In this document: one piece after another, positions 38,516-57,756 of the stretch | How the letters are laid out: each line of letters opens with the position of its first letter | Numbering within the stretch: position 1 is the first letter of the stretch | From: Cristatella mucedo | Lineage: Eukaryota > Bryozoa > Phylactolaemata > Cristatellidae | Length of the DNA stretch: 64,000 nt | Direction of reading: 5' to 3' | NCBI GenBank assembly: GCA_009760855.2 | Contig: WPIO01000026.1 | Location: forward strand, 2,369,501-2,433,500 | The notes under the pieces: generated by a model | What the model was told of the DNA's origin: nothing | Seen by the model: the letters and a program-made list of their open reading frames with translations, nothing else | The model's database searches: none | Translations under genes and position numbers: made by a program

Positions 38516-39150
38516 ATGGCCACGAACAGTGCGGCGTACTTGTTTGCTCTTCTGCTGACGACTGTCGTCTTCTCGCAGGACAAAGCCGCCGGCCTGACGC
38601 AGCGTGAGTGAGCCTTCTGGGACTCGCCTGACGCCACGGAGGCGCCACTGCAAAAGTCGCTAGATCTATAGCGTACGCCGGTAGAACAGTGATTTCGGAT
38701 GCGAGCGACATCGTTGCCATTTTCTTGCCAGGGTGCCCCAAAGGGCAGAAATATTTCGTGGATTCAAAAACGTGCGCCAGATGCTCGTGCCAAGGCTCGG
38801 GCAGCATCATAACCTGCACGGGGTAAATATCGCGCTCCACCATCGCTCGCGGTATTTACCCCTCGCTGAAACAACTCGGTCGTTTCCCTGAGAACGAGCC
38901 TTCAACGACAATTGGCCGGCCGGCCGTCCTTCTTGGCAGGTGCCCAACTCTTCAAGTCACGTGCGACTATGAGATTAAGCTGGCCGAGCGCGGCTGCTAC
39001 TTTTCCAAGTACATGGAACTGCCGGCACCTAACTGCTGTCAATACTCGGTGGAAATATGCCCGGGACACAAGTACTATAGCCGCACTCGCCTATTGGAAT
39101 CAAAAGCCGCCATGAGGTGCACCCGCCTGATTGCCATCCCTGGCCAATGA
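38516..39150 (+). CDS. Gene 1: secreted 12-cysteine VWC-like protein
   Basis: Exons are 38516-38603, 38732-38822 and 38940-39150, with GT/AG introns of 128 bp (phase 1) and 117 bp (phase 2). The product has 129 residues. The ATG is fixed by an in-frame TAA six bases upstream. Residues 1-20 are a signal peptide (MATNSAAYLFALLLTTVVFS), so the protein is secreted. Exon 2 gives five cysteines, starting CPKGQKYFVDSKTCARCSC. Exon 3 gives seven more, including RGCYFSKYMELPAPNCC and VEIC, with the last cysteine near the C-terminus (MRC). C..C.C followed later by CC resembles von Willebrand type C and antistasin-like modules, but CC-x6-C is not the usual CC-x2-C, so the family is tentative. Arthropod single-domain VWC proteins, including tick salivary 8.9-kDa types, are the nearest comparison I can make. 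Function is unknown. Its paralogue is gene 2. Confidence 0.85.
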
Positions 39151-39322
39151 GCTCAAGACAGCCCCCCCCCCCCGACTGCACACGCCAATAGTCACAGTTG
39201 TATGGTCGCTTATTAGATCGGCGAGCGAGACAAGAGCTACGTGAGAAATCAAGCCCTACTGGCCCACTCGAGAGAGAGATTACATCTTTGTGTGCATTTC
39301 CAAAGTACGTTGCTGGTCTTCC

Positions 39323-39328
39323 AATAAA
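39323..39328 (+). terminator. Polyadenylation signal of gene 1
   Basis: AATAAA 173 bp after the stop codon. The intervening 3' UTR contains a C-run near 39162-39172. Confidence 0.65.
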
Positions 39329-39339
39329 TTGAGCATATG

Positions 39340-54878: not shown

Positions 54879-54937
54879 GTGATGTCAGCCGAGATTACTC
54901 AACATAGGGGCACATCGGTTTAGCCAAAGTATATAAG
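54879..54937 (+). promoter_or_regulatory. Promoter of gene 2: shared motif and TATA box
   Basis: GTGATGTCAGCCG at 54879-54891 matches the gene 1 motif at 12 of 13 positions. A TATA box TATATAAG lies at 54930-54937, placing a transcription start near 54960. A second ACGTCA sits at 54956-54961. Confidence 0.55.
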
Positions 54938-54996
54938 CCGAAGCGGAGCCGAGCGACGTCATGAAACGGCAGCATACAGGCGCCGATAGCTGGACC

Positions 54997-57756
54997 ATGG
55001 CGCTAAACTATGCAGCCTACCTGCTCCTGTTTTCGCTAGCAATCGTCGTTTCACAGGATTTATCTGTTTACCCAGAGCGTGAGTGTACGGTGCACAGAGT
55101 AGGCGAGCAATTGCTCGTCGGGCTCATAGTTGCATGAGCACGACTCATTTGACTCGGTTAGATGGCAGGCGAAGCGATTAGAGCTATTGTATGAGTGACA
55201 TTGTCTTTTCTTCTTACTAGAATGTCCTGAAGGGAAAGAATCGTACGTGGATCCGAAAACCTGCTCCACGTGCTCCTGCTTTGAATCTGATGCTGGAATT
55301 AACATTAGCTGCATGGGGTAACTATTGTATTCTTATTGCGACCTAGCCTAGCCTGCAGACTAGAAGCTACCAAAAAAGAAAAGCTTCGAAGCTTTTAGCT
55401 GCCAAAAAAGCGCTTCGACGTAAATATGCATGACGCCGAGACGCTTCCTTGTGGTTGGGCTTGCAAGGTTCTGATAGATTTCGTCCTTTAGTAGGTGACC
55501 GGCATGTGAGCGGACATGCGTCTGTTAAAAAAAAACTTCGAGGGCTACCCAGCCAAACCATCATTTTAATGGACAATCCGTTTCGCCAGGCACATGGTGC
55601 CTCCGGCACCTGCAACCTCCTTGTCTATAATCACACTGGTTTTAGGCTCCGATTCGTGCAATACGCATGCATTAGCTTGCACTGTCTGCAAGGGCATGCC
55701 AGTGCTTGCCCGTGCTGTAGACAGATTTTTCTAGTGAATGCTTTGGCTGCTCGCGCTCATTTGTTATCTCTAAATAGCTCGTGCATTCTGAAATCTCAGA
55801 ACGCCGAGCTGTCGCAGCTGCTTTCTCTCTATGTTTCGGGGGAACGAGCCAGCAGCAGGATCCAGCAGTTTCTCGGTATACGAAATTCCGATTGATTTTC
55901 TATCGGACCTGACGTGCTCACGAGTTTCTAATTACTGTGCATTTCGTCTTTTAAATGCCGATCCCTGAGCTGAAAGAATGTAGCAAGCAATTTTTGGATC
56001 AGTCTCTTTCAAAGAATCACAGACGGACCCTAAAAACTGCCTCATCTACTTGCCCTCTGTCTGTCTGTCTGTCTCTCTCTCTCTCTCTCTCTCTCTCTCT
56101 CTCTCTCTCTCTCTGCCTCTCTCTGTGTCTGTCTCTCTGTCTCTCTGTCTCTCTCTCTCTCTCTCTCTCTCTCTCTCTCTCTCTGTCTCTCTCTCTGTCT
56201 CTCTGTCTCTCTGTCTCTCTGTCTCTCTGTCTCTCTGTCTCTCTCTCTCTCTCTCTCTCTCTGTCTCTCTGTCTCTCTGTCTCTCTGTCTCTCTGTCTCT
56301 CTGTCTCTCTGTCTCTCTGTCTCTCTCTGTCTCTCTCTCTCTCTCTCTCTCTCTCTCTCTCTCTCTCTCTCTCTCTCTCTCTCTCTCTCTCTCTCTCTCT
56401 CTCTCTCTCTCTCTCTCTCTCTCTCTAGACAGGGTGGTTCCTGATCAGAATAATAATGATAATACCCTTGTGTGTACCCTTAGATACCTTAATTTTTGTA
56501 TATGCAATCTATGTATGCTGTAAAGGAAGAATTAGCACACGCTTAGTTGGTTGCCTGCATGGTTTCACAATATGGCTACTCGTTACATGCAGAGTGTGAG
56601 CAAGCATAAGCACACAGGTGAAAAAACAAAGGGACTCGGAATAAGAATGAGTAAAACGGGCAAGTTTTAGCTTCCTTTTACATGTCAGAAATTCGGGAGA
56701 TTAATTGTAGCGATTTTGGAGTTAGTTCAACAGTTTGGAAGCATACTAATAAAATTCACCGTCGCCGAGCGATGTGAGGTTGATTTGAGACTTAGCTAAA
56801 CAATTTGAGTCAGAAGAGCGGGTGATTCCCAACTTGGTCGGAGAGAATTTCAAATAGGTATGCTTGAGAAGGGGAATGAAGAGACGTAAAAATGCGAAAT
56901 CAAACCTTATATTCGCTCCGCTGCGTGATTGGGAGCCTTTTCATGTAGGCGAGAAGTGGTTTAATCTGGTAAAATGAACGTTCACAACATGCAAGCCTGG
57001 CTGCAGCTTGACACCAAACATCAGCACCTAATTGTGTAGGCCAGAATCAGTGAGCAACAGAACTCGATATTTGGTGGCACAAATGCACGGACCAACTTCG
57101 ATGTAGTATCCATGTCAAAGCAGGCCCAAATTTTTGCAATGCTACGTAACCTACAGTTGGCTGCCTTGACTGCAGAGCTGACGTCAACGTTAAGTGAAAG
57201 GCCACGCCTGAAGAGGACATCAACAAAAGTGTTTGTTGCTTAGTGTAAGCACTGCTTCAAAACGGTGCTGCTGCAGAAACCCAGCTTTGTCCAAGCACAC
57301 TTTCGCACGTAATATACTGTCGCCTGGCTCAAGCCAAAAGCTGGGGCTCCTTCAACCAGAATGCAGGTACATCCACAAGCATTGTTGACATGAGCAGTCA
57401 TCGCAGTGATGAGATTAAAAATGTAAAGCAAAGTTGCTTATTCAGTCGATAATTAGGTGAAACACTAAGGTTTCAACTGGGCTTAGATAAGGATATAGCC
57501 ATCAGTCATTTCAGTAGTGCCTGAAGCCTACTAAGCCGTTTTCCGTCATTGCAGATGCCCGTCTATGTCGATCACATGCGACAATGCAAGAGAACAAGCT
57601 ACACGCGGCTGCTACTATTCAAAGTACCTCGAGCTGCCAGCTCCCAACTGTTGCGAATACTCAGTTGAGATATGCGTGGGAGACAAGTTGTTTAACCAGA
57701 CGCGCCTGGAGGAATCGAATGCCAACATCCTGGGTGGCAGCTGTGTCTCGCTGTGA
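54997..57756 (+). CDS. Gene 2: secreted 12-cysteine VWC-like protein
   Basis: Exons are 54997-55078, 55221-55317 and 57555-57756, with introns of 142 bp (phase 1) and 2237 bp (phase 2), the same phases as gene 1. The product has 126 residues. The start at 54997 has a good context (GGACCATGG) and matches gene 1 (MALNYAAY against MATNSAAY). An in-frame ATG at 54961 lies about where transcription should begin, so I reject it. The signal peptide is MALNYAAYLLLFSLAIVVS. Exon 2 encodes CPEGKESYVDPKTCSTCSC and one more cysteine. Exon 3 encodes RGCYYSKYLELPAPNCC, YSVEIC and a final GSC. The first 40 residues of exon 3 are identical to gene 1 at 27 positions. Two N-glycosylation sequons (NIS, NQT) are absent from gene 1. 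The large second intron holds a (TC)n array and an L2 fragment. Function is unknown. Confidence 0.85.
55318..56050. other. 5' part of gene 2 intron 2
   Basis: Contains an exact 18-nt palindrome AAAAGCTTCGAAGCTTTT at 55379-55396 and a 148-codon open frame (55449-55895) that starts at TTG and lacks a domain. I treat the frame as chance. Confidence 0.35.
56056..56426. repeat. (TC)n/(TCTG) array in gene 2 intron 2
   Basis: About 370 bp of TCTC and TCTG units, ending in roughly 90 bp of pure TC. The pyrimidine strand is the sense strand of the gene. Confidence 0.97.
56730..57230 (-). repeat. Diverged L2 fragment in gene 2 intron 2, minus strand
   Basis: Read on the minus strand this is the RT C-terminal region. 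Plus-strand GGGAGCCTTTTCATGTAGGC, with GAGAAGTGGTTTAATCTGG, and ACCAACTTCGATGTAGTATC correspond to 4265-4310 and 4441-4460 of the 3.7-kb copy. The 56813 start matches the 2.9-kb fragment. Inserted antisense to the host gene. Confidence 0.65.

Follow-up and report, generated by a model that had tools for sequence, protein, structure and literature searches.

A tandem pair of three-exon genes for probably secreted twelve-cysteine proteins in Cristatella mucedo DNA

The 64,000-nucleotide stretch of Cristatella mucedo contig WPIO01000026.1 analysed here (the window; positions are counted from its first letter) carries two three-exon genes, A (38516-39150) and B (54997-57756), which are located head to tail on the + strand with a spacing of 15.8 kb. 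They encode small, probably secreted proteins that share the order of their twelve cysteines, and the two genes are tandem paralogues sharing a nearly invariant segment in exon 3. A role as soluble binding proteins is tentatively proposed below and is weighed against several families of cysteine-rich secreted proteins.

The gene pair and its predicted products

Joining of the exons in open frames gives products of 129 amino acids for gene A and 126 for gene B. The exons measure 88/91/211 nucleotides (nt) in gene A and 82/97/202 nt in gene B, the intron phases are 1 and then 2 in both genes, and GT-AG borders are present at all four introns; intron 1 is 128 nt long in A and 142 nt in B, intron 2 is 117 nt and 2237 nt, respectively. 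By these predicted exons and splice sites the gene pair is confirmed as a real sequence feature (Table 1).

An in-frame stop at 38510 precedes the start codon of gene A. In gene B a further ATG, upstream and in frame, is found at 54961; given the TATATA motif at 54930 it would lie close to where transcription is expected to begin. Since this ATG is only 31 nt past the motif, the conserved position 54997 is more likely the start of gene B. Gene A intron 2 (38823-38939) has a length divisible by three and a TAA in frame at its 5' end, and therefore its retention would truncate the protein after the fifth cysteine (C5). Counted from the first stop-codon base, the putative poly(A) signal lies 175 nt downstream in A and 141 nt downstream in B.

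Table 1. Coordinates of the features of genes A and B in the window
Feature	Position	Strand	Basis
Gene A exon 1: start codon and likely signal peptide, phase 1 donor GTGAGT	38516..38603	+	translation; cleavage after S20 inferred by eye
Gene A exon 2: C1-C5, phase 2 donor	38732..38822	+	translation
Gene A exon 3: C6-C12, core RGCYFSKYMELPAPNCCQYSVEIC, stop	38940..39150	+	translation; tblastn of protein A against B exon 3, E 2.3e-21
Gene A AATAAA, putative poly(A) signal	39323..39328	+	motif; function inferred
TATATA motif, 67 nt 5' of gene B start codon	54930..54935	+	motif; function inferred
Gene B exon 1: start codon and likely signal peptide	54997..55078	+	translation; cleavage after S19 inferred by eye
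Gene B exon 2: C1-C5, N-glycosylation motif NIS	55221..55317	+	translation
Gene B exon 3: C6-C12, core RGCYYSKYLELPAPNCCEYSVEIC, N-glycosylation motif NQT, stop	57555..57756	+	translation
Gene B AATAAA, putative poly(A) signal	57895..57900	+	motif; function inferred

In both proteins the cysteines follow the array Cx12Cx2CxCx8-10Cx2Cx6Cx10Cx12CCx6Cx19-22C, five of them encoded by exon 2 and seven by exon 3. When the window was translated in six frames, each of the exon-2 and exon-3 arrays was found twice, once per gene, and neither was found in any of 40 first-order resamples. When protein B was used as a tblastn query within the window, the A locus was recovered with an E value of 1.6e-24; the next-best match elsewhere had E 0.46, and no third copy was seen in the window. 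The relationship between A and B is far beyond chance.

The likely signal peptides of both proteins were judged by eye. With cleavage after S20 in A and after S19 in B the mature proteins would have masses of 12.1 kDa and 11.7 kDa and isoelectric points of 8.9 and 4.3, respectively. Dibasic cleavage sites are absent from mature A and mature B, and therefore there is no sign of a cut-up prohormone. Two NxS/T motifs are present in B (residues 55 and 107) and none in A.

The observation behind the original prediction stands after this analysis, and its interpretation is supported in part. Exon joining confirmed two three-exon genes with phases 1 and 2, the order of twelve cysteines and their split between exons 2 and 3 were found as described in both copies, and the proposed tandem paralogy agrees with the tblastn result; the restriction of N-glycosylation motifs to one copy and the near identity of the exon-3 core described below also hold, while secretion by means of signal peptides is supported as probable.

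Divergence and selection between the copies

Over 116 aligned codons the differences between A and B are distributed as 33/31/60 by codon position, the third position carrying most of them, and the proportions of synonymous (pS) and nonsynonymous (pN) differences are 0.705 and 0.254, respectively. By the Nei-Gojobori method (NG86) the nonsynonymous (dN) and synonymous (dS) substitutions per site amount to 0.31 and 2.0, the latter value being imprecise and near saturation, and therefore the duplication is old. A and B are old, constrained tandem paralogues under purifying selection.

The lowest nonsynonymous divergence belongs to the exon-3 core RGCYxSKYxELPAPNCCxYSVEIC, in which 21 of 24 residues are identical and pN is 0.061, whereas outside it, starting at the first cysteine, 31 of 69 residues are identical (p 2.8e-4 by Fisher's test). 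In the other regions pN reaches 0.338 in the signal peptide and linker, 0.233 in exon 2 from C1, 0.347 between C6 and the core, and 0.372 in the tail. Comparison of positions 36000-40500 with 53000-60000 revealed nucleotide similarity in the genes limited to exons 2 and 3 and 10 nt of intron 1, together with one weak opposite-strand match beyond the gene exons (E 0.026).

The part that starts one residue ahead of the first cysteine has a net charge of +7 in A and -6 in B; neither this contrast nor the concentration of conservation in the exon-3 core was part of the original prediction. By aligned position A is more positive than B at 14 sites and less positive at 4, which gives a marginal result in the sign test (p 0.03).

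Searches for related families

The original prediction had described the pair as resembling the von Willebrand factor type C (VWC) domain with a cysteine spacing unlike the canonical one (for general background on VWC see the excerpt of PMC10326224). Neither VWC (PF00093) nor single-domain VWC (SVWC) was reported by Pfam for full-length, mature or exon-piece queries of A and B, the reporting limit being E 10 and the HMMER filters dropping most matches above about 0.1; in the control the VWC model matched all four genuine VWC domains, CV2 narrowly missing the cut-off and the other three exceeding it. The profile of the pair compared with seven VWC domains gave a probability of 1.9%, against 84.8-98.0% in all six control VWC queries, each of which was compared with the remaining domains. 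The VWC score of 15.3 was reached by 8 of 60 shuffles (shuffle mean 12.8), in which the cysteine columns were held in place and the gap columns were shuffled too, so the cysteines by themselves account for nearly all of the likeness to VWC.

Membership in VWC includes the connectivity 1-4, 2-8, 3-5, 6-9, 7-10 and the sheet of subdomain 1 (SD1). The generous 10-cysteine spacing of VWC (CxxCxC ... CCx2-4C) fails in A and B and fits six of seven control domains, the exception being BMPER domain 2, while the N-terminal half pattern C..CxxCxC..C fits A, B and five of the seven controls. Thus, the VWC-like reading is not borne out beyond the N-terminal CxxCxC half, and the departure from canonical VWC spacing is upheld. 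It is doubtful that A and B are strongly drifted VWC domains which bind bone morphogenetic proteins (BMP) or other growth factors and have added a sixth disulfide: the fit of the N-terminal half and the presence of an adjacent CC with a further cysteine speak for this explanation, CCN3 having already stretched CCx2C to CCx4C, while the missing Pfam match, the low profile probability, the equally scoring shuffles and the failure of the full spacing pattern speak against it.

The hidden Markov model search for VWC, antistasin and TIL, put forward as a check of the original prediction, gave no significant match in Pfam, and none was found in NCBIfam or PDB sequences. TIL, antistasin, pacifastin and WAP were not reported by Pfam for A or B, and the WAP-tail and pacifastin spacing patterns, used without a positive control, match neither protein. 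No Pfam family was found for full-length or mature A; FIBL-2 against the exon-2 piece of A had E 1.1, which is chance level. JTB (PF05439) was reported for B with E 0.15 and 12.5 bits (full length) or E 0.38 and 11.3 bits (mature) against a cut-off of 22.1, and was not reported for A; the JTB profile score of 15.4 was reached by 7 of 60 cysteine-fixed shuffles (mean 11.6), and this candidate was rejected as chance.

NCBIfam gave no match up to E 1, and against PDB sequences protein B and the pair profile gave weak matches at best (ribosomal S27, Fn14, S-layer; E 0.064 or worse). In the viral contigs the exon-3 alignment and the whole-protein alignment produced 94 pattern matches each, of which none was confirmed. 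The pattern scan of prokaryotic genome contigs produced 32 pattern matches with one confirmed, in Actinopolymorpha; this stretch shares RGCYYSKY in a 32-residue match with two cysteines and no CC pair, and was rejected as a chance match picked by the search pattern. No literature match was found for the peptide PAPNCC, and no description of the 12-cysteine array appeared in the titles and abstract starts of the literature matches listed.

An identity of A and B as gland products restricted to their lineage, such as proteins of adhesives, mucus, venom or saliva in which the cysteines give rigidity and nothing more, would agree with the lack of homologues in Pfam, NCBIfam, PDB sequences and the viral and prokaryotic contigs, and the charge inversion between A and B would suit basic and acidic secretion mixtures. 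Such an origin is nevertheless improbable, since strong purifying selection on the core and near-saturated synonymous change argue against rapid evolution under loose constraint.

Other features of the window

After low-complexity removal the window contains 148 open reading frames (ORFs) of at least 75 amino acids; 135 were scanned and 13 were left out by hand, including both ORFs in which exon 3 of gene A or gene B lies. At E 0.01 or better Pfam RVT_1 matched 2 of the 135. Pieces of reverse transcriptase of the long interspersed nuclear element (LINE) type, assigned by ORF reading, encode a closely similar protein in more than one ORF each at 9064-11015 (+), 4065-5032 (-) and 49772-50715 (+). 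At 25917-27616 (+) there is an ORF series, which we take to resemble a ZBED/GTF2IRD2-like transposon-derived protein. One of the 135 scanned ORFs, not specified in the output, matched the Spin-doc zinc finger zf-C2H2_12 (E 3.7e-7), and two further ones with weak Pfam matches (E 0.0035 and 0.0037) were taken as chance. Rfam at the gathering threshold and ARAGORN found nothing in the window. Long simple repeats are located at 43413-43792 (TGTGTC-type), 56055-56426 (CT), 47529-47968 (GGA-rich) and 15923-16124 (TA).

Proposed role and disulfide arrangement

From the pattern of selection and the predicted secretion it is proposed, with somewhat less than even confidence, that A and B are soluble six-disulfide binding proteins which contact a conserved partner through the exon-3 core, one copy being basic and the other acidic and probably glycosylated. 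The proteins would be small and secreted, with twelve cysteines probably forming six disulfides, and would belong to a soluble extracellular binding type, acting as ligands or ligand-modulators and not as enzymes. The near-invariant core may represent the face that holds the conserved partner, while after duplication the exon-2 half and the tail would have changed more, so that A became basic without N-glycosylation motifs and B acidic with two of them. The two copies may thus share one interaction and each be specialised for a different environment.

The candidate disulfide model borrows the VWC order of cysteines and includes C1-C4, C3-C5, C2-C9, C6-C10 and C8-C11 with an added C7-C12 bond. 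Cysteine order is the sole ground of this model, in which the extra cysteines C7 and C12 are paired together, and its register is uncertain. According to the excerpt of PMC6270503 the VWC disulfides are Cys9-Cys31, 26-60, 43-61 and 50-64, the C3-C5 bond being deduced as the remainder.

Several results weigh against the proposed binding role or the model attached to it. In the global mode of hhalign C7, not C5, stands opposite the fifth VWC cysteine, and the register of the borrowed model may therefore be wrong. The collections named above yielded no homologue whose function is known, and structural demands could equally well account for the constraint on the core. AlphaFold prediction for exon 3 alone with the paralogue reached a mean predicted local distance difference test (pLDDT) of 36.8, which is too low to inform on the fold. 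In addition, dS is imprecise, the charge test is marginal, and the tail with pS 0.33 against pN 0.372 is off the trend.

A further-reaching proposal, possible but on the whole unlikely, is that A and B are members of an as yet unnamed family of secreted animal proteins with a six-disulfide fold of its own, composed of a CxxCxC first half and a new second half around the core, in which the duplicates were driven to opposite charge and one invariant binding face was kept. The novelty of such a family is provisional, being measured against Pfam, NCBIfam, PDB sequences and the viral and prokaryotic contigs.

Small secreted disulfide-rich proteins are a main source of new animal signalling, defence and matrix functions, and many of them escape family models because little besides the cysteines stays fixed. 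If the family is confirmed, the conserved core and the charge-inverted duplicates would make it a tractable case for scaffold divergence after duplication. The gene pair itself is well supported.

Comparison with known systems

Like the VWC domains of COL2A1, CCN3 and CV2, the proteins A and B have an N-terminal C..CxxCxC..C run, a later adjacent CC with one further cysteine, and probable secretion. They differ from these domains in having 12 cysteines and not 10, CCx6C and not CCx2-4C, and a C-terminal extension with the twelfth cysteine, and no sequence relation to VWC is detectable.

The arthropod SVWC (Vago-type) immune cytokines are also small single-domain secreted proteins, described in the excerpt of PMC13115929 as cysteine-rich members of multigene families of insects and crustaceans. 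That A and B belong to them is very improbable: the same excerpt describes eight conserved cysteines against twelve in A and B, Pfam gave no match for either protein, and an arthropod host is not established.

The ectodomain of JTB (PF05439, PDB 2kjx) has weak local similarity to B only (E 0.15), and, unlike JTB, A and B contain no transmembrane segment as judged by eye. Twelve conserved cysteines are also reported for the tick 18.7 kDa group (excerpt of PMC2410133) and for tick carboxypeptidase inhibitors (excerpt of PMC3244413); the latter were rejected as candidates, their arrays being read as containing two CC pairs against one in A and B.

In gene layout and cysteine count the pair resembles the molluscan subtilisin inhibitors of MEROPS family I84 (cvSI, scSI). 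In the excerpt of PMC9198434 the I84 genes of the razor clam have 12 cysteines, a signal peptide, three exons with two introns, and tandem clusters, all of which are found in A and B (for the signal peptide as judged by eye), and none of which is specific. It is unlikely, in spite of this agreement, that the pair encodes secreted host-defence protease inhibitors akin to I84. The I84 array given in that excerpt, CX5-8CX4-5CX7-9CX4CTCX6-23CX5-7CX3-6CX5-8CX4CXC, has a CTC, no adjacent CC pair and a terminal CXC, and matches neither A nor B. The mature razor clam peptides are smaller (67-89 amino acids in the excerpt, against 107-109 in A and B), and the most conserved part of A and B is a long core and not a short loop.

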